Part shown: one piece after another, positions 8 to 22,558 of the stretch
Layout of the letters: the number at the start of each line of letters is the position of its first letter
Numbering within the stretch: the first letter of the stretch is position 1
IMG/VR virus record: IMGVR_UViG_3300008218_000059
Coordinates: 1-23,566 of that record
Strand: one strand, 5' to 3'
DNA length: 23,566 bases
Source: a virus
Translations under genes and position numbers: made by a program
The notes under the pieces: generated by a model
Databases searched by the model: none
What the model was told of the DNA's origin: nothing
The model's input: only the letters and a program-made list of their open reading frames with translations

Positions 8-3000
8 GTGCCCAAGGCATCAACCTATCGAGCACGGGCAGCCAAGCCGGGGGTTTTAGGTTCACTGGTAAATGCTGCGACAGGGGCTCGTCCCAACCGT
101 TCATGGACAGGCCCACCCACAGCCAGTAATTTTCTTCGGGATATTGTCCAAAAAACAGGGTCAACTTTCAGGGACTTGTCAGCAATTCCGGGTGTGATGT
201 CAGCGATGGCTCGGATTGAAGAAGCTGAACTTGCTGGGGATCCTGATCTGAAGATGATTGCTGCGCTTGAGTTCGCCCTTGAGTTGGCAGGGACAAAAAC
301 TGCGCAACATGTAGTAGGGAGAACACTGGGGTTAGGTCGGCGGGGAGAGCGCCTTTTGAATGCCCCAGAGACAGAGCAGCCAGCAGGCGTACCACTAGGG
401 GGTGAACAACAAATCGTTGGTGCGCCTCCGATAAATACTAGAGGGGTTGAGCTTGAAGTAGAGACGCCAGATGTGCCTGTTTCTCCAGACCCCCCAACTG
501 GTACTCGTTTCGAAGCAGGTGCTCCTATTATCCCTATTGAACAAGCGGATTCGACTGCTGCTGCGCAGAGGGGAACAACTAGTATCGAGCAGGAAGGTGA
601 CTTATTTTCTGGTCGAGTCAGACCGGAACCGGCTACAACTCCTTTTGTCCCTCAGCGCCCTCCTGTTAACCCAGCTGCAAGGCAACAGGGTGGTGATTTC
701 CAGCGCCCTGCTGAACAGCCTCCTTCAAGGCAGACACAGCTACCAGAAACGGGTGAACTTCAGCTTACTGCGGAGCAGAGGACTGCAGCTGAATCTATTG
801 AATTAGAACTAATCCAACGGGGTGTGCCAGAAGAAGATGCAATAGTTCTCAGCCGTAGTGCTGCCACAGATGATCCTGAGGCACTCGCACAAGTTATTGA
901 CGTTCTTAAGCGTGAGCCTTCAACGTCTCCCACTGCAACACCAACGCCACAGGGCGCTGCTGTCACTCGCCGTACTACCAGGCCCCCAGAGACTCCGGGG
1001 CCGGAAGACGACGTTACAGCTGCTACTGCCCGTGCGAGAGCGCAGGCTGCGACAAGAACTCAAGCGATTGTAAATCCTGCTGGTCAAAAGACTATCAACG
1101 ACACAATAGAAGCACAGCTACGCCAACGTGCTGAGGCCCTGAACAAAAATAAGGGGCAGGTTACTCGTGATATTGACAGAACCAACAGATACATTGATCC
1201 TGTCACGCGACAGCCGAGGGCTGGGATATCTGAGCAGCAAGCAAAGAGAGCCCTCAATGCCTATCAACGGCTTCGGGCTATCTACACTGAGGCAGCACCT
1301 GCAGCAGATACCGCGACTGCGACCGCGCAAACGGGACGCCGCGTTCCTCGTGAGCAGACAATAGAAGACGCAGTTGACCCTGCTTTTCGTGAGACTGACC
1401 CTAATTTAGAGGAGTTCTTGGCTTGGGATGATGCACCTCTACCGGGATCTCCAGTTAAACCCGCTACAGGAGTGCAGCCTGTTGATCGTGGAACACCGCT
1501 TACCCCTGAAACACCAGTTGTTACCGGGTCACAAGTAGTCCAACGAGAACCTGATGTTCCTCTCAGAGATCAGGGCGATGTTCCTGTTATAGCTGACAAG
1601 GCAGCGTTACGTGCAGAGATACGGGAGGCAGGCGTCACGGTTAAAACAGCAAATTTTAACCGGCTTTGGGAACTGCTTGAAAACAATGATCCAGAAGCGT
1701 TGAAGTGGGTTGAAAACTTGCGTGCAGTCGAGCCCCCACCACCTGCTGGAAGTTCTGGTGCAGTTACTGAAGGGGCAGATGCCTCCATGCTGCATCCGGG
1801 AGGTGCGCGCCCACAGGTAGCGGTCAATTTCCCTGACGCTATGCCGGGGGACAAACGCACGGCAGCAGGGAAAGACCTTTGGGCACGGTTTACAGCAGCA
1901 GCAGAAGGGATGACAAAGCGGGAAATTACCCGGATGTGGAGGAACGCCCGCACCAGTCCCGCAGGGTACAGGGAACTACAACAGGTCATCACGAAAGCAG
2001 AAACAGCGTTGCCGGGTTCAGCGGAACGTATAGCTCGTGGAGGTGTTCAACCCGGAAGAGGAGAAGGAGGGTTACCTGCAGCTGGTCTAGGAGAAGTCAG
2101 TCCCGGAGCAACGGGCCCCTATGGACAGACCACCGGAACAAGTGAATTTGTCTCCCCTGAAAATGTGCAGCGACAACGTGATATTGCAGCAGCACGTGCC
2201 GTAGAAGGGAGAGAGCCTGAAATTGAAAGTGTGACTCCCGGCGCTGAGCTGAAGACGTCAGGGAGGGATCTGACTGCTGCGCCTACCACAGCTTTCGTTG
2301 GCCCTCGGCAAATACCTACGACTTCTCCTGCGGGCAGGATAGACCTGACTGGAGGGTCAAGAGGGGAGACTTCAACTGCCCTGCGTGACCCTGAGACTGA
2401 CGAGCTTACCCCTATTGGCGCACGTATTCTGGATACCTATTCAGCCGGGGCTGAGAACGAGATTGCGCAGGTTATCCAGCGTATGCGTACGGCGAATGAT
2501 CCTGCCGCCGTGAAGAAAGCCATTACTGACTTTCACTTGGCGCAGCGAAAAAATTTGCTTGAGTCAAATCTTCAAACTGAAGCTGACTATAAACGGTGGC
2601 AGACACAAACAATTCGAAGTCGCCATACAAACATTGATCTACTTGCGCGTGCAAAGCAAGCGGTACAAGATCAGTTCCGCCATCGCTTAACTGGGATTTT
2701 TGAGCAGCCCGAAGGTCAGCAGGCTAAAACATATTACCGGAAAGAAAGTGTTGAACCGCGCCAATCGGGTGTTGCCTCCTCCTTAGAGAAAGCCTATGGG
2801 GGGAAGGGCGTAGACCCGAATGATCCTCGAAAAGTCTACGCGCAAAATCTGTTTAATGTGTTTTTCGAGGAGCAGGACATCTTGAATAAAGCTGGGGATG
2901 TCGTTGCTACTGTGCCAAAGCATCCTGTTGTACAGCACCTGTATCGCATGGAATTTACGCGGATGCAGGCAAAAGAAAAGGCGATGTTCTTGGAGGCTGC

Positions 3001-5848
3001 CTTCAAAGATAAGGTCGCTCCTGATGTGTGGCAGAGTTTTACTAGACACTTGGATAAGCTGGATGAATTACAGGCACACTTGGACACAGAAGTTGATAAT
3101 TTCCTTCAGGTGTCTGTCTTAGCTCCACGTGCAGATCCAACGACGGGAGGCTATACCTACAGTGCGGGCACTCGTCCCGGTGAAGTGCGTTCAATGCCGA
3201 GTACTTTAGGGACAGGGTACTTGGGGGCTCCTGCTACCAGTAGGATGGATGCCCCTGTGCAGCGTGAAGGTCAGGCGCGCAGTCCATACAAAATACAGGA
3301 GCGCCGGGACACGCAGCATGCTTCACGGGTCTTACCGTCGGATCTTGCAGATGCGCGTGCTCGGATCTTGGCCTATACCCGTGAGATAACCAACTTAAAT
3401 GCAGACATTTCCAAAGCAACGGATGGGTTGTTTTCTATCTACTCAATGGTTGACCCCACACTATGGAGAAACTTTGTGCGGCACCCGGATGCGTTGCGTA
3501 TCGCAGGGGGTGTTACGGGTGGTGGTATTGGGTGGCAGGCAGGGGTAGAAGGGGCCAAGGAAGAAGGCGAAGGCACCTTTGGTCGGATGATTAATGGGGC
3601 GCTTGGTGCCACCCTGTATGGTGTATTGGGATATAAAACCAAAGACATCTACAAAGGAGCCATGAAGGGGGGTGACCCTCGGTTTGGTCGCATGTGGTCA
3701 GAGCGTCTGCGTGATGGACTCCTCTTGAATATGCTTTCCTCTCCTTCATCCCCAGCGAAAGCCTTTCTCGGGGCCCATGCCGGGTTTCAAATCGAAGGCT
3801 TGAGTCGTCAGATTCAAGGTGCCCTGATGAAGTTTGATGCTGGGAGGTTGAGAGCAGGAGGAGACACTGCCCGAGCAGCAGATCTACAAAAAGAAGGCGA
3901 TCTGCTGACAGAGCAGGGCCGTGGCATTAACTCTGACATGTTCAGGTTAGAGGTGGATTTCATGTCTGGTAACCCGAACAATATGATTCGGGAAATCTAC
4001 CGCATTGATCCTGAAACACGTGAAGGCAGACGAGAGCTTGAGCGTTACGTTGAAAGATCGGGTTGGAATGAAGGGGTAGACGCTGCGCTTGCGGTTGAGC
4101 GCATGTCTGGCATGATGAGTGGGAACATGTTAGGGCGTGCTTTTCGCGCTTCTGATTGGGCCCCAGTAACTATTGGATTAAAGCATGGTGTTTCGCTTGA
4201 AGAAGGGAGACGTCTTGCTTTAACAGGCACCCCTGAAACAGAGACTGCGACAGCGGCGATGAAGTGGTTCAGTGGGACACAGGCACAACAGCTTCGCATG
4301 CAGCAAACTGCTATAGCGCAGCGTGCACAGGCACAAGGGATTACGGTAGATACACCTGAAGATGTCGCAAAGTTGATGCAGCACCCTGACTTTGGCCCTG
4401 AGCTGGAGAAGATCCAGTCACAGCTCACAGGAGCAGGATGGGGAGACTTTGTAAAGACGCTTATAGCGCCAATGGCGCGTGTTGGTGTGCAAATGGGGGA
4501 GCAGGCAGCACGTTGGGGTGCAGCCCCCTTAGTGCGTGGAGCCGAGGCGCTTCTTGGGAAGCGATTGAACCTTCCCGGATTTCTTGGACGGGATCTTGAG
4601 ACTTTAGCTCCGGTGGATAAGCCTTATCAAACTGCTGCGCGGGGTGCGATGGCTGCTGGCCTTGGTGGTATCGGGGCAGGCACCATGTTGTATGGTGACC
4701 CTCGCATTCAGAATCTTGCGCAAGCCGGTGGTGGGCATCTGGCAGGGCCACAGGCATTTGGACAGTCAGCTGGTCAAGCGTACGCTGAAGGGGGAAATGT
4801 CCCTGAATCTCTGGCAGCTGGGGCCTCGTCACTTCTGCAAGAGATCAGTCCTGTTGCCGGGGATCTTGTCAGTGGAGAAAATGTTGGCACGACGTTTGGT
4901 AAGTATGCGATTTCGAACCTGCACAGAACACTGCTGCAGGGTATTGGGGGCGTTCCCGGAGGCACGGATCTATCCTCACGAGGAGCAGCACAGGGTGTTG
5001 CTTCGGGGGATCTTCCGCCTGTCTTTACGGCTCCCTATGGGCTTGGATTTACCGCACGCACATTTGCGCCCTTGACCCAGTATGCTGCACGGTTCCCTGC
5101 ACGCAGTCTTGCGCCTAGCCCTATAACGGGAAAGCCCACGCTTGATCCGAGGATAACTCCATTTAATCTGTTCAACAATCCATTCACTGAGGGGATACGT
5201 CGGCAGCCGGTCAGTCCGACTGAGCGTCCCATGCACGAGGAAGATCACGCTGGATCTTATACCCCCGTAGGAGATGCCACATTAAATCCAAATCCGAACC
5301 CACTGCTCAGAATCCCCAAGACCCTCTACAACATAGGACAAACCATGTTTGCCCGTCCCAACGAACAGACGAATCGCGTAACAATGGGACGAGATGAGGT
5401 CGCACAGATATTAGCAGGTCAAGGCAACACGTTTGAGGGTGAGCAGATTGTGGGAGCCCCAACCAGTGGAAGAGTGGTACCTCCGAGTCGTATTGTGGAC
5501 AGTACATGGGATCGACAGGAAGGACACCCATTGAAGGGTGTGCCTCGTCGCGTTGAAGATTTTGCACAGATGTCGCGGGGGATGGATCGGTCAGCACAAT
5601 ACTTCGCCATAAGAGATCATAAGGAAAGGCACCCTGAAACTTGGGCCTCTGCGATGCAAGACCCAACAGGAAACGCTCTGCGCCAGTTGATAGCGGATGT
5701 TCTTCAGGGTCTTGAAGGGACAGAAGTGAACCCACTAGGCACGGATGATGTTATTAAGTCTTTGCGCAATGACCAACTACTTGAAACTATAGCCCGTCAA
5801 CGTGGAGCCACCACCGCGAACCCGGATATACTGCGTCCTATTCGATGA
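8..5848 (+). CDS. giant putative internal virion / DNA-ejection protein (5' end may lie outside the window)
   Basis: This frame is open to the left edge of the window. The GTG at 8 is the first start visible, so the gene may begin further left. The product (1946 residues from here) has a helical N-terminal 120 residues, then a Pro/Gln/Thr-rich, probably disordered region to about residue 740 that contains a Lys/Arg-rich helical patch. A long helical middle follows. Two glycine-zipper-like hydrophobic stretches lie near residues 1165-1220 and 1542-1562, and the C-terminus is helical. Size, composition and position at the end of a plus-strand operon fit the large internal or ejection proteins of short-tailed phages. 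No transglycosylase, protease or polymerase motif was recognised. A short motif, EQ(Q)IVGAP, occurs at residues 133-140 and again at 1812-1818. It ends in TGA inside an ATGA overlap with the next gene. The coding call is firm; the function is inferred from architecture and context. Confidence 0.75.
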   Translation: MPKASTYRARAAKPGVLGSLVNAATGARPNRSWTGPPTASNFLRDIVQKTGSTFRDLSAIPGVMSAMARIEEAELAGDPDLKMIAALEFALELAGTKTAQHVVGRTLGLGRRGERLLNAPETEQPAGVPLGGEQQIVGAPPINTRGVELEVETPDVPVSPDPPTGTRFEAGAPIIPIEQADSTAAAQRGTTSIEQEGDLFSGRVRPEPATTPFVPQRPPVNPAARQQGGDFQRPAEQPPSRQTQLPETGELQLTAEQRTAAESIELELIQRGVPEEDAIVLSRSAATDDPEALAQVIDVLKREPSTSPTATPTPQGAAVTRRTTRPPETPGPEDDVTAATARARAQAATRTQAIVNPAGQKTINDTIEAQLRQRAEALNKNKGQVTRDIDRTNRYIDPVTRQPRAGISEQQAKRALNAYQRLRAIYTEAAPAADTATATAQTGRRVPREQTIEDAVDPAFRETDPNLEEFLAWDDAPLPGSPVKPATGVQPVDRGTPLTPETPVVTGSQVVQREPDVPLRDQGDVPVIADKAALRAEIREAGVTVKTANFNRLWELLENNDPEALKWVENLRAVEPPPPAGSSGAVTEGADASMLHPGGARPQVAVNFPDAMPGDKRTAAGKDLWARFTAAAEGMTKREITRMWRNARTSPAGYRELQQVITKAETALPGSAERIARGGVQPGRGEGGLPAAGLGEVSPGATGPYGQTTGTSEFVSPENVQRQRDIAAARAVEGREPEIESVTPGAELKTSGRDLTAAPTTAFVGPRQIPTTSPAGRIDLTGGSRGETSTALRDPETDELTPIGARILDTYSAGAENEIAQVIQRMRTANDPAAVKKAITDFHLAQRKNLLESNLQTEADYKRWQTQTIRSRHTNIDLLARAKQAVQDQFRHRLTGIFEQPEGQQAKTYYRKESVEPRQSGVASSLEKAYGGKGVDPNDPRKVYAQNLFNVFFEEQDILNKAGDVVATVPKHPVVQHLYRMEFTRMQAKEKAMFLEAAFKDKVAPDVWQSFTRHLDKLDELQAHLDTEVDNFLQVSVLAPRADPTTGGYTYSAGTRPGEVRSMPSTLGTGYLGAPATSRMDAPVQREGQARSPYKIQERRDTQHASRVLPSDLADARARILAYTREITNLNADISKATDGLFSIYSMVDPTLWRNFVRHPDALRIAGGVTGGGIGWQAGVEGAKEEGEGTFGRMINGALGATLYGVLGYKTKDIYKGAMKGGDPRFGRMWSERLRDGLLLNMLSSPSSPAKAFLGAHAGFQIEGLSRQIQGALMKFDAGRLRAGGDTARAADLQKEGDLLTEQGRGINSDMFRLEVDFMSGNPNNMIREIYRIDPETREGRRELERYVERSGWNEGVDAALAVERMSGMMSGNMLGRAFRASDWAPVTIGLKHGVSLEEGRRLALTGTPETETATAAMKWFSGTQAQQLRMQQTAIAQRAQAQGITVDTPEDVAKLMQHPDFGPELEKIQSQLTGAGWGDFVKTLIAPMARVGVQMGEQAARWGAAPLVRGAEALLGKRLNLPGFLGRDLETLAPVDKPYQTAARGAMAAGLGGIGAGTMLYGDPRIQNLAQAGGGHLAGPQAFGQSAGQAYAEGGNVPESLAAGASSLLQEISPVAGDLVSGENVGTTFGKYAISNLHRTLLQGIGGVPGGTDLSSRGAAQGVASGDLPPVFTAPYGLGFTARTFAPLTQYAARFPARSLAPSPITGKPTLDPRITPFNLFNNPFTEGIRRQPVSPTERPMHEEDHAGSYTPVGDATLNPNPNPLLRIPKTLYNIGQTMFARPNEQTNRVTMGRDEVAQILAGQGNTFEGEQIVGAPTSGRVVPPSRIVDSTWDRQEGHPLKGVPRRVEDFAQMSRGMDRSAQYFAIRDHKERHPETWASAMQDPTGNALRQLIADVLQGLEGTEVNPLGTDDVIKSLRNDQLLETIARQRGATTANPDILRPIR

Positions 5849-6051
5849 GTGAAAACGGGTGGCACGAATACCAACGCTTAGTCTTAGCGGAGCTGACTCG
5901 ACTGGACGAGGGGATGCAGAAAGTGCAGGAAGATGTGTCCCAAATCCGTTTGTCGGTTGCAGTGCTTCGCACCAAGGCAGTCACATGGGGAGCATTAGGG
6001 GGCCTGATTACATGGGGGCTCAGCCTTGCTCTTACCTACTGGGGGGATTGA
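5845..6051 (+). CDS. small XhlA-like / holin-associated membrane protein, 68 aa
   Basis: The start ATG overlaps the upstream TGA (ATGA) with no separate Shine-Dalgarno, so translation is probably coupled to the giant gene. Residues 1-45 form a charged amphipathic helix likely to coil (heptad-like RLDEGMQKVQEDVSQIRLSV). A single membrane segment, AVTWGALGGLITWGLSLALTYW, closes the protein. Coiled coil followed by one C-terminal membrane helix is the layout of XhlA-type haemolysin/holin-accessory proteins, which sit in lysis or tail regions. The gene is the last of the plus-strand operon before the hairpin at 6109-6144. It could instead be a virion-associated membrane anchor or a spanin-like protein; sequence alone does not decide. 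Confidence 0.65.
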   Translation: MSENGWHEYQRLVLAELTRLDEGMQKVQEDVSQIRLSVAVLRTKAVTWGALGGLITWGLSLALTYWGD

Positions 6052-6108
6052 CACTATATCTAGTAGTACATATACTTAAAGTGCTCAGCCCATTGTAGTC
6101 CTCAGAGA

Positions 6109-6144
6109 CGGGGTACCTAAGACCACTCTCGCTTGGGTACCCCG
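6109..6144. terminator. hairpin between converging operons
   Basis: A 13-bp stem (6109-6121 pairing with 6132-6144; arms CGGGGTACCTAAG and CTTGGGTACCCCG, with a single G-T pair) encloses a 10-nt loop. It lies between the TGA of the small membrane protein and the TAA of the DNA polymerase, so it can serve both strands. Neither side has a clear T-tract, so it may stop transcription weakly, act with Rho, or protect mRNA 3' ends. Confidence 0.65.
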
Positions 6145-6150
6145 CCTGCC

Positions 6151-8859
6151 TTACACGGTTTTCATCTTTCCCCATCGGTCACCCACTTGCGCTTCCACTC
6201 CGACACTGAGGTGTGTTCCCATGTTCCATTCAGCAGGGAGGGGGAGCCATGGGATGGGTTGCGTCATGATGTTGGTGACGGTATTGATAATGTCATCAGC
6301 ATCTGCCCGTGCGCACTCCCCAACTAGTGAGTCATGGATGAACAAGCGGAGGGATTCATGCGCACTCGGAGAATGCTTCCGCACCCCGGTAATTGCCCGT
6401 CGCCCAATCGCGGCTGCTGCATGCTGAGGGTTGAAGGCGACGAGGGCTTTTGCGGTAGGGCCATAGTTCCATGTCCAACTGTCATCCGACACTCGTGTCC
6501 ACTTGAGGACATTGAAGTATCGGTGAATCATTCCACTGGGATTCCGTACCCACCCTGCTCCAGCGGTAATCCCCAAGCCGGGGTCGTTGTTTTCTGTGGT
6601 GCCATCTACGGCGAGACACAACCCTTTCTGCCACGTGGAAATCTCAGGGAACAGTTCCGCATAGAACTTAAAGAACGCTTTAATATCTTTCAACGGTACC
6701 GTGCGGTTGAGTTCTTTCAAGAGAATTTCCTGTGCCTTGAAGGGCCCCATCATGTAGTGGTGTCCATGCACCAGTCGCTTCCGCACAAACCGTTCACGCG
6801 GGAACCGCTGCTTGAACTCTTTCAACGCAGCACGCAGCTCATCATCCCCCCACCCTAATTCTGGCAAGGCACTCGCCGGAATTTTTTGATCAAGGAAATG
6901 AAGGGCATACGCATTGACGTAATCATGTACTCCCATGGTAGACAGGCGCATGAGTTGTGGGCTGCGGGCAAAGTACCCTACCAACAGGGCTTCAATCCCT
7001 GAGTAGTCAATCTCCCAGAAGCAGGAGCCTTTCGGAGCCACGAAGATATCCTTCACCAGTCCTTGGAGTCCACCCCCATGAGGAATCTGCTGCAGGTTGG
7101 GGTTGACCATGGAGGTACGCATGGTGTCCGGGTTGTTGGTGATAGTGGGGTGGCACCGTCCATCAGCATAGACGGGTAGCCCCCCTTCAATCTTCCCGAA
7201 GGGGGCTGGGCGTCCGATGTAGGTACCGCTGAGCTTCTGCACTTCACGGTAGTCCAGCACGAGCGGGTAGAGGGGGTCATCAGGGTGCTTGAGGATTAAG
7301 GCACGGAGGGCTGTCTCATCTGTTGTGCGCTTCCCTTTGCGCAGCACGGCTTTGTGCTTGTGGTAGTCCTGCCACTTGGCAATGCTCTGCCAGCTCACGA
7401 TAAAGGGTTGTGGGATGGCCCATTGTGTAGTGCGCACTGTCCGTGTTTCGAGTGGGACATTGCAGGGATGCGTGGCTTCAGTGATTCGTCCTTCCTTCCC
7501 ACAGGCAGGGCAGTGCTTGACGATAGCTTCGGCTTCGACCTCAGAGCCTTCGCCGTGATGGGCAGCGCGAGCACGACTGACGCTCTTGTAGAGTTTCACC
7601 TTCTGCAACGCTTCAGGGATGATGTCCTGTATCTGCTGGTCAATCGCCTTGAGCTTCTCGTCGAGGGTGATGGCATGCTTCCGTCGGGTGACGCTATCGA
7701 CAGGCATTCCCTTCCGGTGCATGTGCTGGAACACGGGCTCACAGTCTACGATTTGTTCTTGGTAGAGCTTCCACATGTCCATCTCTTTCAGCAAGTCCCA
7801 TGTCTTGAGGGTAATGCGTAGCGCAGCATCACTATCAATAGCGTTATAGAACGCTGGGGTCTGCCGACTGAGGTGCTTCCATCGGGGCTGGTCATCCAAC
7901 AAGAGGGAGGCCACAAAGCCGAGGCTTTTGGGAAGGTCAGAGTGGAGGACATGCCATGCAATCATGCCGTCATAGACGGTGCCGTTAATCTCAAAGCCTT
8001 TGACTTCGAGACGGGGACAATCGAAGGCAGCGTTCCAGACAATCTTTGGATTCGGAGAGGCCAAGGCTTCACGGATGACGGACTTCGTGAGGCGATTAAA
8101 CTTCAGGCTCATGGCATGGTGCGGGCGCGCAGCAAAACTAATACGGGTGATGCGTCCATCTGCACGCCAGTCCACCATGTCTTCATCTATCCCTTTGTCG
8201 GTGGTTTCAATGTCAAAGGCTACCGGGGTGGTAGGGTCACGGAGTTCACGGCGTAGCCATTCACGTGCCACATTGGGGTTGGGGTCTTGTACGTAGTGGG
8301 TCTGCGTACGCTTGAAGCCTTCTTGTGCCATGCGCACGGCCAGCTGCAGGTCATGGATAAGCACAGAAGCATAGTTTGGATTCCCCCGCATGATGTAGCT
8401 GGGGTGTACTGAAGGTACTAGTACGTGGCGTTGCCACACTGTAGCGTAGCCTCGGTGGTCAAGGATGTTGGCGCGCTCAATGAACTGGCGCAGGGCAATG
8501 TTGCCCAAGGGCATGATGACAGCAGGGGGGTGACGTTTGATGAGGGGGTAGAGATGTTCTATCCAACATTGCTTCAAGGCAGCTGGCGCATAGGGGCCAG
8601 CGATATCATTGCGTGGTGGGCGACACCACATGGCATTGGCAATTCTGAAATCTTCGCGGTTGAATCCTGCTCGGGCGATACAGTCATTCAACACTCGGCC
8701 TGCTGCCCCTACAAAGGGACGGCCTGCCTCTGCTTCTTCAGCACCCAACGCCTCCCCAATGAGAAGGACACCATTTGTGCCCTCCCCATCAGGGGACATG
8801 AAGCCAGAGCCCACGACGCCTAACGAACAGCCGTGGCACCCGGACGGTTTACGGAGCAT
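6151..8859 (-). CDS. fused uracil-DNA glycosylase (family 4-like) and family A DNA polymerase, 902 aa
   Basis: Replicative polymerase. Residues 1-180 look like a family 4 UDG: Cys8/Cys11 and Cys79/Cys98 fit the Fe-S ligands, GEALG at 35-39 precedes GRPFVG, and SVHPSY lies at 150-155. The 3'-5' exonuclease is intact: D216xE218, N276AAFD280 and Y338xxxD342. Within about 425-500 there is an insertion with a small Cys/His cluster (C450, C453, H464, C466). The polymerase domain has RTSMVNPNLQQIP (571-583), motif A D618YSGIE623, motif B R690, K694, H698, Y702, and motif C H842DS844. By motif B spacing, H698 sits where E. coli Pol I has F762. Motif C has Ser where most relatives have Glu. An N-terminal UDG domain on a phage PolA is known, for example in SPO1-type polymerases. 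Only the codon TCC separates its ATG from the stop of the upstream gene, in the same frame; no good Shine-Dalgarno is seen, so coupling is likely. Last gene of its operon. Confidence 0.95.
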   Translation of the reverse strand: MLRKPSGCHGCSLGVVGSGFMSPDGEGTNGVLLIGEALGAEEAEAGRPFVGAAGRVLNDCIARAGFNREDFRIANAMWCRPPRNDIAGPYAPAALKQCWIEHLYPLIKRHPPAVIMPLGNIALRQFIERANILDHRGYATVWQRHVLVPSVHPSYIMRGNPNYASVLIHDLQLAVRMAQEGFKRTQTHYVQDPNPNVAREWLRRELRDPTTPVAFDIETTDKGIDEDMVDWRADGRITRISFAARPHHAMSLKFNRLTKSVIREALASPNPKIVWNAAFDCPRLEVKGFEINGTVYDGMIAWHVLHSDLPKSLGFVASLLLDDQPRWKHLSRQTPAFYNAIDSDAALRITLKTWDLLKEMDMWKLYQEQIVDCEPVFQHMHRKGMPVDSVTRRKHAITLDEKLKAIDQQIQDIIPEALQKVKLYKSVSRARAAHHGEGSEVEAEAIVKHCPACGKEGRITEATHPCNVPLETRTVRTTQWAIPQPFIVSWQSIAKWQDYHKHKAVLRKGKRTTDETALRALILKHPDDPLYPLVLDYREVQKLSGTYIGRPAPFGKIEGGLPVYADGRCHPTITNNPDTMRTSMVNPNLQQIPHGGGLQGLVKDIFVAPKGSCFWEIDYSGIEALLVGYFARSPQLMRLSTMGVHDYVNAYALHFLDQKIPASALPELGWGDDELRAALKEFKQRFPRERFVRKRLVHGHHYMMGPFKAQEILLKELNRTVPLKDIKAFFKFYAELFPEISTWQKGLCLAVDGTTENNDPGLGITAGAGWVRNPSGMIHRYFNVLKWTRVSDDSWTWNYGPTAKALVAFNPQHAAAAIGRRAITGVRKHSPSAHESLRLFIHDSLVGECARADADDIINTVTNIMTQPIPWLPLPAEWNMGTHLSVGVEAQVGDRWGKMKTV

Positions 8860-10320: not shown

Positions 10321-10395
10321 TTAATCAATCAAGGCGTATAGTTGAAGCGCAAAGATTATCAAATATAGGACGGCTACGGCAAACTCAATCTCCAT
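10321..10395 (-). CDS. possible 24-aa single-pass membrane peptide
   Basis: A tiny ORF begins at the ATG at 10395, overlaps the last 11 nt of the nuclease gene, and fills most of the gap before the ATPase. It encodes MEIEFAVAVLYL followed by IIFALQLYALID, that is, one uninterrupted hydrophobic helix with an acidic N-terminal end. Phages often carry such micropeptides, but the Shine-Dalgarno is poor (CAGG placed too close) and a hydrophobic run of this length can arise by chance. Reported as a candidate only. Confidence 0.3.
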   Translation of the reverse strand: MEIEFAVAVLYLIIFALQLYALID

Positions 10396-11449
10396 CCTGC
10401 ATTTGAATCATTGTATTCTCTGCGGCATGATGTGGTTCCCGAGGCACGAATGACCCACTCCCTATGGGGTTCTTGTGAATGGTGGAGACATGACACATGT
10501 CGAAGTAACTGCACTGCCCCCAGCCTGTGTCACACTGGGAGATATGTTGCGGGAAGATACCCATGTGCTGTGCCCACTTTGTTTTGTGGTCACTAGGCTC
10601 TCGTGTCTTGGCAATGAGCTGTTCCCTGTAGGTAATCTGCTCCAGCACCCCGTCCATAATCTTCTGCGGGAAGATGGGCTGTGATTGTGGATAGACCTTT
10701 GCCACCATGTCTGGGTGCTTCTTCATCAGCTGTTGAATCCAGCCTTGCACTCCGTTGTGGTGGTACTCCTTGGTGTTGAAGCGTTGGAATCCTGTCCGTC
10801 GCTGCACCCCATAGGTAGGCTCCGAGACTCCCGGCACTCCGGGATGTCGATAGCCAAAGACTAAGGGATGGTACAACATACCCTTCCGACCACTTCCTTT
10901 GCCGAGTCCTTGTATCCATGCACCTGCGAGGTCTAAGTCCAACGCTTTCTCGCATGCAAGGAAGGTCAGCTGTTGCTGCAGGCTGATGACCCAACGGTGG
11001 TAGTTGAATGACCCACTGAAGGTCTTGAAGTCAGGATACCAATGGTCACCTGTGCGTTTGTGTTTGAGGATAAGGTCGGGACGGCACATGAACAGCACCC
11101 CGTCATGCTCAAACTCCAGCTCCTGTTCTACGACAACAGGCTCATAGTCTGTCATCCACTGGGGCCAGATGTATTCGAAGAACCCTGTCACGATAGCCGT
11201 CACACAATCCTTCTGGTCATCAGTCATGTCAGCCTCGGAGATATCCGGTGCTGTCTCTCCCTTGATGCCTGCTTCAATCCCCTCATGCACAGCCAACCCA
11301 AAGGTAAAGGCTGGTGGGTTGGAGGCAGGCACCAATCCTGTGCTGGTATGCTCATCTCGATACTCAGTCAACCAGTACCGCTTGCGTGGACAGAGCCAGT
11401 CGGCTTCAATCCGTGAGCGGTCAGTTAAAATTAAACTTACTTTATTCAT
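10385..11449 (-). CDS. PD-(D/E)XK nuclease with probable Fe-S cluster (Cas4/RecB-like), 354 aa
   Basis: The motifs of RecB/Cas4-type nucleases appear in order: Cys20 in CPRKRYW, His55 in GLAVHEG, PD at 124-125 in CRPDLIL, the DxK core D140FK142 in WYPDFKTF, and the helical QQQ at 158-160. Three cysteines follow near the C-terminus (C306, C313, C319), so Cys20 plus these could bind a 4Fe-4S cluster as in Cas4 and AddB; the last spacing (CX5C) matches those families, while the first (CX6C) is longer. No cas1/cas2 or repeats are present, so this is a phage recombination/replication exonuclease and not part of a CRISPR system. The start ATG has AAGGAG (11455-11460 on the complement) 5 nt upstream. 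First gene of the replication operon, divergent from the helicase. Confidence 0.9.
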   Translation of the reverse strand: MNKVSLILTDRSRIEADWLCPRKRYWLTEYRDEHTSTGLVPASNPPAFTFGLAVHEGIEAGIKGETAPDISEADMTDDQKDCVTAIVTGFFEYIWPQWMTDYEPVVVEQELEFEHDGVLFMCRPDLILKHKRTGDHWYPDFKTFSGSFNYHRWVISLQQQLTFLACEKALDLDLAGAWIQGLGKGSGRKGMLYHPLVFGYRHPGVPGVSEPTYGVQRRTGFQRFNTKEYHHNGVQGWIQQLMKKHPDMVAKVYPQSQPIFPQKIMDGVLEQITYREQLIAKTREPSDHKTKWAQHMGIFPQHISQCDTGWGQCSYFDMCHVSTIHKNPIGSGSFVPREPHHAAENTMIQMQDGD

Positions 11450-14237: not shown

Positions 14238-14519
14238 TCACCCTCCTACGGAACAGACGCCACACCAGAGCCAGCCATGCGTGTTCCTCTCATCTCCTGC
14301 ATCTTCCGCATTCTCTATCACACACCACTTGGCATCCTTCCCACAATCAGTACAGGGTGTGCGACTTCCCCCTTCCGAATCAATGCGGTCCAGCCTCGCT
14401 ATTGGAATGAGATGCACCGTGCGTCCATGCATGTCATACTCAATCGCTTTCAGGCTTACGTGTACACTGAATCCACCTTTAATATCCATATGTAATCTTT
14501 CGACTCCAAACTTATCCAT
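14238..14519 (-). CDS. zinc-ribbon-like hypothetical protein, 93 aa
   Basis: Two CxxC pairs in the C-terminal half, TPCTDCGK and WLWCGVC, about 30 residues apart, form a likely zinc ribbon; the N-terminal half is beta-rich with no known motif. The ATG at 14519 is chosen because GAGGA stands 6 nt upstream. An earlier ATG (14540) and a later one (14489) also exist, and the two inner starts sit in a 15-nt direct repeat of 30-nt period. First gene downstream of the control region at 14520-14773. Possibly a DNA- or protein-binding accessory factor. Confidence 0.7.
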   Translation of the reverse strand: MDKFGVERLHMDIKGGFSVHVSLKAIEYDMHGRTVHLIPIARLDRIDSEGGSRTPCTDCGKDAKWCVIENAEDAGDERNTHGWLWCGVCSVGG

Positions 14520-14578
14520 ATGTAATCCTCGCTGCTGCAATCATATACCTATTGACTGCACCTTAATACATGTGTGTA

Positions 14579-14707: not shown

Positions 14708-14783
14708 TGAGACTACACTAAAGCCTTTAGTTATATACAGTTAAGTGGGAAAGTCTCACGCAGCACACCATATTTATGCTATG
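14708..14783 (-). repeat. promoter/TGAGACT module, copy B
   Basis: Minus-strand order: GTCAT near 14779-14783, CATAAA as a weak -10 (14773-14778), GTGAGACT at 14752-14759, AGTCTCA at 14708-14714. The geometry matches copy A but the -10 is poorer. It overlaps the last codons of the amidoligase gene. Confidence 0.4.
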
Positions 14784-15685
14784 ACTATGGTGTGTCCGTG
14801 TGTGGCTGGTAGTCCGTCAGCCATGACAGGATGGTGGAACTGGTTGTTCTCCACTGTCTCATTGACTACGGTGCCGATGTTCGACAGGGTTAAGTCCTGC
14901 TCTTGCAAGACATCACTACTGACCTGCTCCCACAGTGAGGGATTTGTCCAGTAGTTGTGGGTTGAACGCAGCACCTGTTCTACCATAATCAGGGCTGACT
15001 CTGGTGTCGTGGCTGCGGGACAGACACGCACCTCGATGGTACCATGCTGCTCAAAGGCAGTGTAGTTCACATGGTTGTAGCGTTCCCACATCCTGCGCCA
15101 ACTGTTGGGATGGCAGTAGCCAGCCACCTCATTACTGGATGTGCCGTGATAACACCGATGGGTTAACCATTTAGCGTCCTGTTCGGGCAGCTTCCCTTGT
15201 TCAGCAAGGTCTAGGAGGTCAAGCCTGATGAGATTCCAATAGACCGCAGACATGGTGAAGTCAAAGAGTTCTTGCGTCACCCCGATATGCACATGCATCC
15301 CTGTGTGAGCAGACACCCTGTTTGGATAGCCTAACCCTCTGTTGCCGCAGTTAGACACGCTGCGCACCAAGTCACTCCAGTTATGCAGCACAGGAGAGGC
15401 ATACTCCGCACCAACATAGTCATTAGAACCCGTGGCTTCTCGTGCATAGCCACTGACTGACCCGTCCTCCTTCAACCCATGTCGCTCAAGGAATCCGTGC
15501 ATGCCTCCTTCCTCTCGGCAGTTATAGCAGAGATGTGTTCTCTCCCTAACCCCATCATCGTGTTCTTCCCAATCGCAGTCATAGCAATCAGGGTCTAGTT
15601 CCGAGTCCCAGTTCGGAGGCTTAGACCAGAAGCCTTCGACCTCAACGCCAATCGTCTTAATTGAAGTAGGAAATTCTCTCATCAT
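14774..15685 (-). CDS. amidoligase (ATP-dependent carboxylate-amine ligase fold), 303 aa
   Basis: Amidoligases use ATP to join a carboxylate to an amine through a glutamine-synthetase-like fold. Family landmarks seen here: GVEVEG (13-18), EDGS (73-76), EYASPVL (94-100), GMHVHIG (129-135), RYNHVN (202-207) and TIEVR (216-220). Between the first two, an inserted pair of CxxC motifs (C34/C37 and C53/C56) probably binds zinc. Three in-frame ATGs occur at the start; the one at 15685 is chosen because GGAGG is 8 nt before it, while it is only 2 nt before the ATG at 15691. The glutamine amidotransferase gene ends 12 nt upstream, so the two are almost certainly co-translated. Such pairs are described in phages and are predicted to make peptide or side-chain amides; the substrate here is unknown. 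Confidence 0.9.
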   Translation of the reverse strand: MMREFPTSIKTIGVEVEGFWSKPPNWDSELDPDCYDCDWEEHDDGVRERTHLCYNCREEGGMHGFLERHGLKEDGSVSGYAREATGSNDYVGAEYASPVLHNWSDLVRSVSNCGNRGLGYPNRVSAHTGMHVHIGVTQELFDFTMSAVYWNLIRLDLLDLAEQGKLPEQDAKWLTHRCYHGTSSNEVAGYCHPNSWRRMWERYNHVNYTAFEQHGTIEVRVCPAATTPESALIMVEQVLRSTHNYWTNPSLWEQVSSDVLQEQDLTLSNIGTVVNETVENNQFHHPVMADGLPATHGHTIVIA

Positions 15686-15697
15686 GGACATATCCTC

Positions 15698-16582
15698 CTA
15701 GCTGATGGTGCCTTGAAGTTCAGGGAGTAACCCGAGTTCGTATGCACAGCTATCACAGACCAGCTCGTGACTCACTGTGCATGCTGTTTGATACTGCTCA
15801 GTCGGAAGTGACTGGTCACAGCCTGCGCACTTGATGTCTACACTGTCAGGTTCAATCGGGGCTGGTGGATAGGATTCCTCCTTTACCTGTGGGGTAGCCT
15901 TCTTCTTCCCATGTAGGGTGTAGCCATCCCACTTGTTATACCTGTTATCCCACTCATCCCACAGGGAATTACCAACGTAGCCTGCCCCTGTGTAGAATCC
16001 ACCCACTGGGCGTGACCAACAGTGGTTGAGGTTCGAATAGAAGCACCCGTCAGTGGTACCATCAGTAGCCTTTGAGCCAACCTCCCACTGCCCAAAGCGC
16101 ATCAGCCTTGACGGAGAGAACAACACCAAGCGTCCTGCTGATGTCGCAATCTGCTTGGCTGTCCCATCCCTGTTCTCATCTCCTGTGCGCCACAAGACCC
16201 ATGCCATGATGCGAGTATCTGACGCTGAGCCTTTGAGACTTGGCGTGAACTGTGCATGCTCATTCCAGATGCCATTGTGGAACAGCACCTCCCGAGCCTG
16301 TCCTTCCACAGCAGTGCCGACGTTCCTGCTAATCGGGAAGGGATGGCACAACCCTGCTGACTTTCCTCCATGTGTCGCAAGCCTGAAGTGCATGACGTAT
16401 GGCAGTGGCACTGACTGACTGAGGTCTGTCAGCTCCTCCACTGAGATGCCCTTGCGCCATGTCACAAGGTTGCTGTCTGGTTCTTTGTACGCAATGCCTA
16501 ACCCATCGGGATTGGTGTTGTCTGCATCTTCAATCTCTTTGGATGTAGGGCGAGCGGTATCTGCAACAATAATTAAACACAT
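15698..16582 (-). CDS. class II glutamine amidotransferase with C-terminal zinc ribbon, 294 aa
   Basis: An Ntn-hydrolase: Cys2 directly follows the initiator Met and would be the nucleophile after Met removal. Matching landmarks are NPDGLGIAY (24-32), HFRLATHG (65-72), HPFP (80-83), the oxyanion motif HNG (102-104), SDTR (121-124) and FYSNLN (181-186). Residues 252-279 hold C252/C255 and C276/C279, a zinc ribbon not usual in the minimal GATase II domain. The enzyme hydrolyses glutamine and passes ammonia to a partner; the adjacent amidoligase is the obvious candidate. The Cys2 requirement fixes the ATG at 16582; only a weak AAGAA purine stretch lies before it. The zinc ribbons of both proteins may help them bind a shared target. 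Confidence 0.9.
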   Translation of the reverse strand: MCLIIVADTARPTSKEIEDADNTNPDGLGIAYKEPDSNLVTWRKGISVEELTDLSQSVPLPYVMHFRLATHGGKSAGLCHPFPISRNVGTAVEGQAREVLFHNGIWNEHAQFTPSLKGSASDTRIMAWVLWRTGDENRDGTAKQIATSAGRLVLFSPSRLMRFGQWEVGSKATDGTTDGCFYSNLNHCWSRPVGGFYTGAGYVGNSLWDEWDNRYNKWDGYTLHGKKKATPQVKEESYPPAPIEPDSVDIKCAGCDQSLPTEQYQTACTVSHELVCDSCAYELGLLPELQGTIS

Positions 16583-16603
16583 AAGTTTTCTTCTTTCGTT
16601 GGA

Positions 16604-17155
16604 TTAGGAGATGACGTGTGCGGTAGTCACTTCAGTTTTCTCGACTACGACACGTCCGAGGACGAGCTGCTTGATGGAGTAGTCAAGATTCACCGCAATG
16701 TTGTGACGTTCAGCCTGTTTCACTTCACAGTACTGTTTACGCCACAAGTCATGGTCACTCTCAGACCTGATAGCAATCCTTCGCGTCAAGCTGTCAGTGC
16801 AGAGGCGTAAGAACGCAAGGTTCTTATACCAATGCGATGACTCCTCGAACCGGAGGCTTGGCTGTGCTGATGCCGAGTGGAACTCACTCCGATTGAACTG
16901 CCAGCACAGACTACTATACTCATCAAGGATAGAGATGCGCTGCGCTCCTCTGTCCATGTCATACAGGGCTAACTTATCTTCCCCATTGCTGGTTGTGCCC
17001 TCCTCCACACACGCTGCTGCGACCATCCTCATCCAATCCTGCAATGCCTGATGGACTGTGAACGTCAAATCTATCCCGTGTATAGGGTCACGCTTGATGG
17101 TGTACTTCACTAGCGTGTCACCCTTCCGAAGTGAGATGATGTTCTGCTCTGCCAT
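16604..17155 (-). CDS. hypothetical protein, 183 aa
   Basis: Not recognised. Mixed alpha/beta composition with an N-terminal beta-rich part (VKYTIKRDPIHGIDLTFTV) and a helical middle (ALQDWMRMVAAACVEEG). The protein is polar overall, with no membrane segment and no clear metal or nucleotide motif. AAGGAG 7-8 nt before the ATG is encoded by the last codons of the gene upstream, so the two are coupled. It stands 21 bp before the glutamine amidotransferase and is the nearest co-transcribed candidate for a substrate or partner of the amide-forming pair; that is inference. Confidence 0.75.
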   Translation of the reverse strand: MAEQNIISLRKGDTLVKYTIKRDPIHGIDLTFTVHQALQDWMRMVAAACVEEGTTSNGEDKLALYDMDRGAQRISILDEYSSLCWQFNRSEFHSASAQPSLRFEESSHWYKNLAFLRLCTDSLTRRIAIRSESDHDLWRKQYCEVKQAERHNIAVNLDYSIKQLVLGRVVVEKTEVTTAHVIS

Positions 17156-20557: not shown

Positions 20558-20978
20558 AGTCGAAGCTGACCAGTTTTCACTCATGCTGCTCTCAGGGGCT
20601 CCCGTCAGTGATGCCGTGCGGTATTTTCTGGATCCCCTGACCCCGGAAGAATTTCTGGTGGAAGCCGCAGAACAATGGCCCCAACAAGCCGAAGTGCTTG
20701 ACCGATTACAGCACTATACCGGCGGGGAAGCATGGCACAAGATGACTGACCAGCAGCGACTGGAAACAGCCATTAAAAAGCACTATAACGAGATGGCCTA
20801 CTTCCTCTGGACCGTCAATTACGTGGAATGCTCGGGCAACGACAAGATTAAAGCCGATACCTGCCGCCAATCACTTGAAGTCAAACTTGCAGGCTTAGCA
20901 GGACAGGATTCACCGTTATCCCGGTTCTATAACGATATGCTGGCAAAGTATGACCACACAGCTGGCACCGTGAGTTAA
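20541..20978 (+). CDS. probable terminase small subunit, 145 aa
   Basis: A helical protein directly upstream of the large terminase, with which it shares a TAATG junction. A possible HTH-like N-terminus (MLLSGAPVSDAVRYFLDPLT) precedes helical segments. Small terminases are poorly conserved, so position and size carry most weight. The frame also allows TTG at 20526 and GTG at 20532; the ATG at 20541 is taken as the simplest choice, with GAAAGTGA upstream. It would bind the packaging site and regulate the ATPase. Confidence 0.7.
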   Translation: MRALTEVEADQFSLMLLSGAPVSDAVRYFLDPLTPEEFLVEAAEQWPQQAEVLDRLQHYTGGEAWHKMTDQQRLETAIKKHYNEMAYFLWTVNYVECSGNDKIKADTCRQSLEVKLAGLAGQDSPLSRFYNDMLAKYDHTAGTVS

Positions 20979-22558
20979 TGGCAACCTCAACGGTGCCTCC
21001 CGATCTGCGAGATCGGTTAATCACAGAATTTCGTCGGTTTCTCTGCGACCAGATTGGATTCGTGCCCTTTGAGCACCAAGCTGACTGGTGGGTCACCACC
21101 GATGGCTACGCACTGAGTCAACAAGTCACGGCCCCGGATGATACACGTCCCTCCATCAAAATCTGCCTGCCCACTGGCACAATCGAACACCGCTTGCTCG
21201 TTCCTCGCAAGCACGGGCGCGCGAAAGTCGTCGCAGAACTCGGAGCCTACAAATCAGGCAAATCCGCTGGCGCGGGACTTTGGGGGGCCGCATTCGCTGC
21301 CGTGCCCAACGCTTTGGTGTATCTCGTGGGCAATGAATACGATATGACCGCGCCAGAGTTTGACTATATCCTTGAATCCCTCTGTTCAGAGCGAGGACTC
21401 AACCAAAAATACAAATCCCTGCAAAATCGCCCGAAAGACGGACGCCTCTGGTTGGAAATGGAAAACGGAGCCCGATTTGAAGCCCGATCATGGGAACGCT
21501 CAGAATCCCTCAAGGGGAAGGAAGTTGACGCCTATATTTACTGCGAAGCCTACCAATTACCGGGGATTGAGTGCTTTACCTCCGTCTCACAGAATCTGCG
21601 CGTGCGACAGGGCTATGCTGTGTTTCCGACCACGCCTGACCGCCCGTGGGTGGGGGTATTTCACGATAATGGACACGGCCACGAGGATTTCCCGGAATGG
21701 GTCTGCAAATGCGCCGTCCCGGCGACGGTGAACCCTTATAGCTTCGATCAGAAGGCCATGGATCGAGATCGACATTTATTGACGCGCGAAAAATTCTCGA
21801 TTGCCTATCTGGGCAAGTTGGGGGATTTTGTGGGGCGTGTGTATAACTATCAGCGCGGAGATCGACTTTTTACCCCACGCTCCCACCCGCACCTGTGGCA
21901 TCGACCGGAACGAGGCGACATGAAGGAGAATTTCAAGTTGCCTCACGATTGGCGGGTGGAAATCGGGGCGGATACCGGCACCTACTGCGCAGCGTTGGCT
22001 GTTGCCATTTCCCCGGAGGGAGATGCGTTCATTCTGGATGAATTGACGAACTATAACTATGTGGCAAACACCCCGGAGCTGGATCCCTCTTCGTCGATTG
22101 TGACATGGGCACAAGCGTTTACCCGCATGGCCGCACTGTGGCGCACACGCCCCATGGCGTGGGTGGACAGCAATAGCCAGTTCAAACAGGAATGTCTCCA
22201 CCACGGCGTCCACTTGATGGCAAATAAACGCGGTCGGGAAGTGCGCACGGAAGCTGCCCGTCAATATTTCCAGCACGACAGAATTTTTCTGGCCCCATGG
22301 CTTGAACGGCTCCCGTATGAAGTCGAGCACGCCCAATGGCCCGACCACACGTCGGCGTCAGGAAAATATGAGCGGATGAAATCCAATGATCATGTGCTGG
22401 ATTGTCTGGAGCATGTGCTCTCTCGGCATCCACGGGGCATGGCGAAAAAACAGCCCCCGGTCATGCAGCCCCCGGTGGGCAGTGTGCAGTGGTTAGGGAA
22501 TCCCATCAAGAAACGGAAAAGTCGTGCGCCGGCAGACAGTCATTTAGGAGGACAGTAA
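20978..22558 (+). CDS. terL: terminase large subunit (packaging ATPase-nuclease), 526 aa
   Basis: Drives DNA into the prohead and cuts it. The ATPase part has Walker A GAYKSGKS (89-96) and Walker B AYIYCE (185-190, catalytic E190), followed by the coupling region around residues 200-220. The RNase H-like nuclease part has acidic residues D332 (IGADTG), D397 (AWVDSN) and D471/D475 (SNDHVLDCLEH). Length is normal. The start overlaps the preceding TAA. The C-terminal tail is basic (KKRKSRAPADSHLGGQ), and its codons contain the AGGAGG used by the next gene. Intact, with no sign of damage. Confidence 0.95.
   Translation: MATSTVPPDLRDRLITEFRRFLCDQIGFVPFEHQADWWVTTDGYALSQQVTAPDDTRPSIKICLPTGTIEHRLLVPRKHGRAKVVAELGAYKSGKSAGAGLWGAAFAAVPNALVYLVGNEYDMTAPEFDYILESLCSERGLNQKYKSLQNRPKDGRLWLEMENGARFEARSWERSESLKGKEVDAYIYCEAYQLPGIECFTSVSQNLRVRQGYAVFPTTPDRPWVGVFHDNGHGHEDFPEWVCKCAVPATVNPYSFDQKAMDRDRHLLTREKFSIAYLGKLGDFVGRVYNYQRGDRLFTPRSHPHLWHRPERGDMKENFKLPHDWRVEIGADTGTYCAALAVAISPEGDAFILDELTNYNYVANTPELDPSSSIVTWAQAFTRMAALWRTRPMAWVDSNSQFKQECLHHGVHLMANKRGREVRTEAARQYFQHDRIFLAPWLERLPYEVEHAQWPDHTSASGKYERMKSNDHVLDCLEHVLSRHPRGMAKKQPPVMQPPVGSVQWLGNPIKKRKSRAPADSHLGGQ

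Follow-up and report, generated by a model that had tools for sequence, protein, structure and literature searches.

Computational analysis of the 23,566-base virus record IMGVR_UViG_3300008218_000059, the whole of which is hereafter called the window, showed that two adjacent genes encode a class II glutamine amidotransferase (GATase) and a glutamine synthetase (GS)-like amidoligase, both with intact active sites. A third gene, X1, is a further member of this cassette within group 1, the seven related contigs, all fragments, that include the window. With a probability of roughly 0.6, we read the cassette as a virus-specific system for the glutamine-dependent amidation of a carboxylate by the GATase, the GS-like ligase and the third protein, X. 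Phage amidoligase/GATase pairs were first noticed more than a decade ago and, to our knowledge, still lack a known target. The linked protein X is a concrete handle for finding the acceptor by co-purification or pull-down, and amidation of envelope or protein carboxylates, should the pair perform it, would be a phage route to chemical remodelling of the host. Features of the window lie on the minus strand unless marked (+) and those of the cassette are collected in Table 1.

Table 1. Cassette features, with positions in the window and the evidence for each.
Feature	Position	Strand	Basis
Class II GATase, N-terminal Cys2, 294 aa	15698..16582	-	Invariant catalytic residues; PurF/GlmS profile matches; GATase_4 in relatives
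GS-like amidoligase, Amidoligase_2 superfamily, 305 aa from 15691	14774..15691	-	Fold, motifs, profile match; start probably 15685
GVEVEG motif, acidic strand, predicted metal/ATP site	15632..15649	-	G15, E17, E19, G20 invariant in 15 sequences
GMHVHIG motif	15281..15301	-	G131, H133, H135 invariant in 15
TIEVR motif	15026..15040	-	T218, E220, R222 invariant in 15
X1 (P0003), third cassette gene, 183 aa	16604..17155	-	Same-position homologues in six relatives
AGGAGG ribosome-binding site	15694-15699	-	Sequence reading; overlaps GATase stop codon
Ligase double CxxC insertion (C36, C39, C55, C58), predicted Zn module	15518..15586	-	Invariant in 4/4 close homologues
GATase C-terminal Cys4 ribbon (C252, C255, C276, C279)	15746..15829	-	Invariant in 5/5
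Zinc-ribbon ORF, 100 aa, CTDC...WLWCGVC (CxDC...WxWCGxC)	14238..14540	-	Start codon uncertain

Identity of the two enzymes

Alignments were built from relatives collected from viral contigs. C2, H65-F66-R67, G72 and H102-N103-G104 of the GATase were invariant in 15 homologues and T70 and D122 were conserved in at least 90% of these. The GATase profile matched the PDB structures of PurF (E 5.8e-4) and GlmS (E 6.9e-4), and Pfam GATase_4 was recognised in 8 of the 15 relatives; for the window GATase (P0002) by itself the Pfam match was below threshold. The features that mark class II GATases, namely an N-terminal Cys after Met, R67, N103-G104 and D122 together with profile similarity, were all present, and the assignment to this class made in the preliminary description on the basis of the Cys2, HNG and HFR motifs was thus confirmed. 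Two scans of cellular genomes using GATase alignments returned no relative. One weak GATase relative was found on a plasmid with no annotated ligase beside the gene, which counts against our reading.

The ligase was similarly conserved, with G15, E17, E19, G20, D76, S78, E96, G131, H133, H135, R204, Y205, N209, H216, T218, E220 and R222 invariant in 15 homologues. The motifs GxExEG, DGS, ExxS, GxHxH, RYxxxN and TxExR were invariant or nearly so and aligned with those of recognised amidoligases. At the level of motifs, GxExEG, GxHxH and TxExR would correspond to the metal, glutamate and phosphate site of glutamine synthetase. When the AF2 model of the ligase (pLDDT 77, pTM 0.73) was searched against the PDB with Foldseek, glutamine synthetase, PafA and YbdK were retrieved, with structural Z scores of 9.7–10.5 against GS and YbdK, and a comparison with BFVD retrieved phage amidoligases (E 1.8e-6). 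Alignment of the ligase profile to recognised phage amidoligases using hhalign gave a match at 98.9% (E 1.6e-17), and PF12224 (Amidoligase_2) matched 4 of the 15 family members, at best with 1.6e-7. The amidoligase assignment, proposed earlier from the presence of GVEVEG, GMHVHIG and TIEVR, is therefore upheld by invariant residues, model and profile alike. Structure prediction had been named beforehand as a possible route to its refutation, and it returned the GS/YbdK/PafA fold.

Single-sequence scans of both enzymes were weak because both are divergent. The window ligase (P0001) matched PHROG 7469, an amidoligase family, at E 0.0064, and had no match when scanned alone against Pfam. No PDB structure was retrieved with the ligase alignment as profile, and none of P0001, P0004 and the L052 ligase found a match by tblastn among 50,697 phage records.

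Layout of the locus and the third gene

The transcription order is X1, GATase, amidoligase and the zinc-ribbon ORF, and near-identical copies of the cassette region were found on two further IMG/VR contigs. The GATase start follows the end of X1 by 21 nt. Between the GATase and the ligase the gap is 6 nt if the first ATG of the ligase (15691) is used and 12 nt, the value given in the preliminary description, from the ATG at its third codon (15685). The AGGAGG is spaced 2 nt from the former ATG and 8 nt from the latter, and on account of this better spacing 15685 is probably the translation start. As the same AGGAGG overlaps the stop codon of the GATase, it suggests that the two enzymes are translationally coupled. 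The genes likely form an operon, in keeping with the coupled pair proposed at the outset; promoter and terminator scans gave results no better than shuffle level.

Homologues of X1 at 25–32% identity occupy the same position in L012, L013, L014, L015, L031 and L032, so that X1 homologues adjoin the pair in 7 of 7 group-1 contigs, a stronger association than was claimed when the gene was put forward as a candidate partner. No match to X1 was found in Pfam, PHROG or NCBIfam, and a single weak match among phage records (E 0.5) was disregarded. Its AF2 model is of low confidence (pLDDT 41.7), and the order of elements in it, strand-strand-helix followed by helix-strand-helix, is only suggestive. 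In deeper lineages (L016, L017, L018, L019, L004, L021, L041 and L052) a protein of 159–232 aa, X2, is encoded beside the ligase and GATase, and a scan with X2 brought up cassette contigs only. X1 and X2 share their place and resemble each other in size and in the order of their predicted elements, and one sequence bridges the two (p 0.0067); their profile comparison was not significant (E 0.33). A single X family across the lineages is likely, with homology of X1 to X2 only suggestive. Possible roles of X1 are those of a partner, a specificity subunit or a substrate.

Mitochondrial IF-3 and SNAP-25 appeared only as weak PDB profile matches of X (best E 0.059) and were disregarded, and LUZ24 gp17 (189 aa) and RIO-1 gp12 showed no homology to X. 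In L053, a 620-aa protein with six CxxC pairs (2951-4813) has a weakly X2-like C-terminal region (E 0.022) and overlaps the start of an amidoligase gene.

When 2.9 million viral contigs were scanned, all 5 confirmed relatives of the zinc-ribbon ORF downstream of the ligase lay on cassette-bearing contigs; as those relatives were part of the query alignment, this result means only that the scan added none. The ORF is common to L004 and L021, which represent one unrelated lineage and otherwise share only the cassette with the window phage. Elsewhere in the window, a 902-aa protein (6151-8859, minus strand) has a uracil-DNA glycosylase domain (E 8.8e-22) at its N-terminus, joined to a DNA polymerase of family A (E 4e-21), and a 1946-aa ORF (8-5848, (+)) without a Pfam family probably encodes a large virion or internal protein. 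From its P-loop-like AYKSGKSAG motif and context, a 526-aa protein (20978-22558, (+)) is probably the terminase large subunit. It had no match in Pfam or, by tblastn, in the 50,697 phage records, and the phage group therefore appears to be undescribed.

Cysteine modules, linkage and divergence

Both enzymes carry added Cys-pair modules, as first noted from the window, and the invariance of their quartets (Table 1) bears this out. CxxC pairs were found at the same position in 6 of 6 group-1 ligases, and GATase residues 244–283 matched PHROG 4736, a family of phage GATases, in its C-terminal part. Over 15 cassettes, Cys pairs were located at the ligase N-terminus, in the ligase insertion, at the GATase C-terminus or in the third protein, while one cassette (L016) has none in any of its three proteins. 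Because of this variable placement, the cassette without pairs and the C-terminal CxxC pairs also present on the RIO-1 and LUZ24 GATases, the modules are accessory and mobile between subunits, not catalytic. The same evidence does not sustain the earlier suggestion that the modules distinguish this pair and direct its two enzymes to one substrate. Zinc binding by the modules is a prediction. The L016 cassette (4820-6588) is minimal, comprising an X2 of 159 aa, a ligase of 230 aa and a GATase of 195 aa, and should be convenient to express.

The order X1-GATase-ligase was retained in every group-1 contig covering the site (the window, L012, L013, L015, L031 and L032; L014 ends after the GATase, before the ligase). 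In the deeper lineages (L016-L019, L004, L021, L041 and L052) X2, ligase and GATase also occur together, in variable order, and GATase and ligase are adjacent in Marvin, MEP402 and gut phages. The neighbourhood survey proposed in the preliminary description, in which unlinked genes in related phages were to speak against a coupled pair, found no related phage contig covering the site in which the pair is split.

Within group 1, identity was 26–32% for X1, 34–39% for the ligase and 43–47% for the GATase, as against 72–83% for flanking TerL-like and ATPase genes (terminase-like 78–83%, AAA ATPase 75%); one flanking gene (10385-11449) was also low at 46–48%. Across positions 14774-17155, which span X1 and both enzymes, related phages are hence far less alike than in most of the flanking genes. 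Between the close relatives L013 and L032 the dN/dS of the three cassette genes was 0.17–0.41, which indicates purifying selection, and the conservation seen in motifs, Cys quartets and dN/dS is far beyond chance. Divergence combined with purifying selection would fit functional proteins with changing targets, and horizontal replacement could also account for it.

Proposed chemistry, acceptors and known systems

In the mechanism that we propose, the N-terminal Cys of the class II GATase would liberate ammonia from glutamine, the GS-like amidoligase would convert a carboxylate into its activated acyl-phosphate at the expense of ATP, and the reaction of the two products would yield a primary amide. 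X would be an obligate third component, most likely recognising the acceptor or holding the two enzymes together, and the Cys4 modules would serve as interchangeable docking or recognition appendages. We infer the amidation chemistry as such, with ATP-dependent amide formation and transfer of ammonia between subunits, as well as the role of X. GS-superfamily ligases such as GCS and PafA can also use amines or amino acids in place of ammonia, so that a peptide-type amide is a possible product instead of a primary one. As acceptor, the data would accommodate either a carboxylate of a cell-envelope peptide, whose modification would alter the host surface, or one on a protein.

If the acceptor is the host wall, for which the chances appear real but fall short of even, the locus would be a reduced peptidoglycan modification cassette that alters stem-peptide carboxylates and so hinders superinfection or shields the wall from other lysins. 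Wall modification has been suggested for the amidoligase, GATase, GGCT and ATP-grasp set of RIO-1/PSA-HP1 and LUZ24-like phages (PMC5498523, PMC3890496), in which the wall is itself a putative target, and MurT/GatD illustrates the amidation of a wall precursor by a glutamine-dependent pair of proteins (PMC6113224). GGCT, frequent in other phage cassettes, was found near the block in L004, L021, L019 and L052; however, it was detected neither in the window nor in the rest of group 1, fragments throughout, and the window ORFs that were scanned yielded neither ATP-grasp nor a second COOH-NH2 ligase. Both window enzymes are, moreover, only distant relatives of their LUZ24/RIO-1 counterparts. A host or phage protein is also a credible acceptor, without being the probable one: side-chain or C-terminal carboxylates would be amidated or have an amine attached, X and the Cys modules would recognise the protein, and X might perhaps be the substrate. 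The relation of the ligase fold to that of PafA, a protein ligase, agrees with this, as do the shifting of Cys4 modules between subunits, the constant adjacency of X in the contigs tested and the much faster divergence of X1 and the ligase than of most flanks, as expected of host-facing proteins. Such divergence could however equally reflect relaxed constraint or horizontal replacement, no target motif was found, and X has neither the conserved C-terminal tail nor the fixed acidic residue that a substrate might show.

Synthesis of a small-molecule amide or of a modified nucleotide for phage DNA is improbable. It finds a precedent in GAT-QueC of phage 9g, where a class II GATase domain takes part in deoxyarchaeosine base modification (PMC5567051), and the uracil-DNA glycosylase domain on the window polymerase might be taken to point the same way. 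The ligase nevertheless groups with phage amidoligases, not QueC, and DNA modification is made less likely by the lack of QueC, TGT, GCYH or other base-modification genes among the part of the window ORFs scanned. Returning to the amidation of a carboxylate by the three proteins, a more specific form of this reading is rather doubtful at present: a virus-only three-component machine in which X is the obligatory acceptor-recognition subunit or the acceptor itself, and in which specificity is set by mobile Cys4 modules and fast divergence of X.

The cassette is not a new kind of system, as phage amidoligase/GATase pairs are already known; the preliminary description was right to recall them from comparative genomics, where they are described in LUZ24, RIO-1/PSA-HP1 and OM43 phages (PMC5498523, PMC3890496, PMC10580990), and a change of the host surface that wards off superinfection has been suggested for related cassettes (PMC5498523, PMC10580990). 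The cassettes of LUZ24/UFV-P2 and RIO-1/PSA-HP1 comprise COOH-NH2 ligase, Amidoligase_2, GATase II, ATP-grasp and GGCT. With these the window shares an Amidoligase_2-type ligase linked to a class II GATase in the early region and Cys pairs at the GATase C-terminus; it differs in the internal double CxxC of its ligase, an X unrelated to LUZ24 gp17 and very divergent sequences. We do not class the window among these cassettes. Ligase and GATase genes are adjacent also in Marvin and the OM43 phage MEP402, and the N-terminal part of Marvin gp105 carries Cys pairs, but identity is low (29% for the Marvin GATase), MEP402 came up only when the L018 GATase served as the query, and the Marvin region searched held no X homologue.

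Outside phages, glutamine synthetase, the GCS-like YbdK and PafA share the ligase fold at 10–19% identity; they have no GATase partner gene and act on different substrates. MurT/GatD of Staphylococcus aureus unites a glutaminase with an ATP-dependent ligase bearing a Cys4 zinc ribbon and amidates a wall-precursor carboxylate (PMC6113224). It is a functional analogue and not a homologue, built from a Mur-ligase fold and a class I GATase where the window has a GS fold and a class II enzyme. Some of the present architectures may already be mentioned in the original comparative study of Iyer et al. 2009. New relative to these systems are a divergent clade absent from 50,697 phage records (ligase) and from two cellular-genome scans (GATase), and a three-component form with a linked third protein, Cys modules that move among subunits and a linked zinc-ribbon gene.
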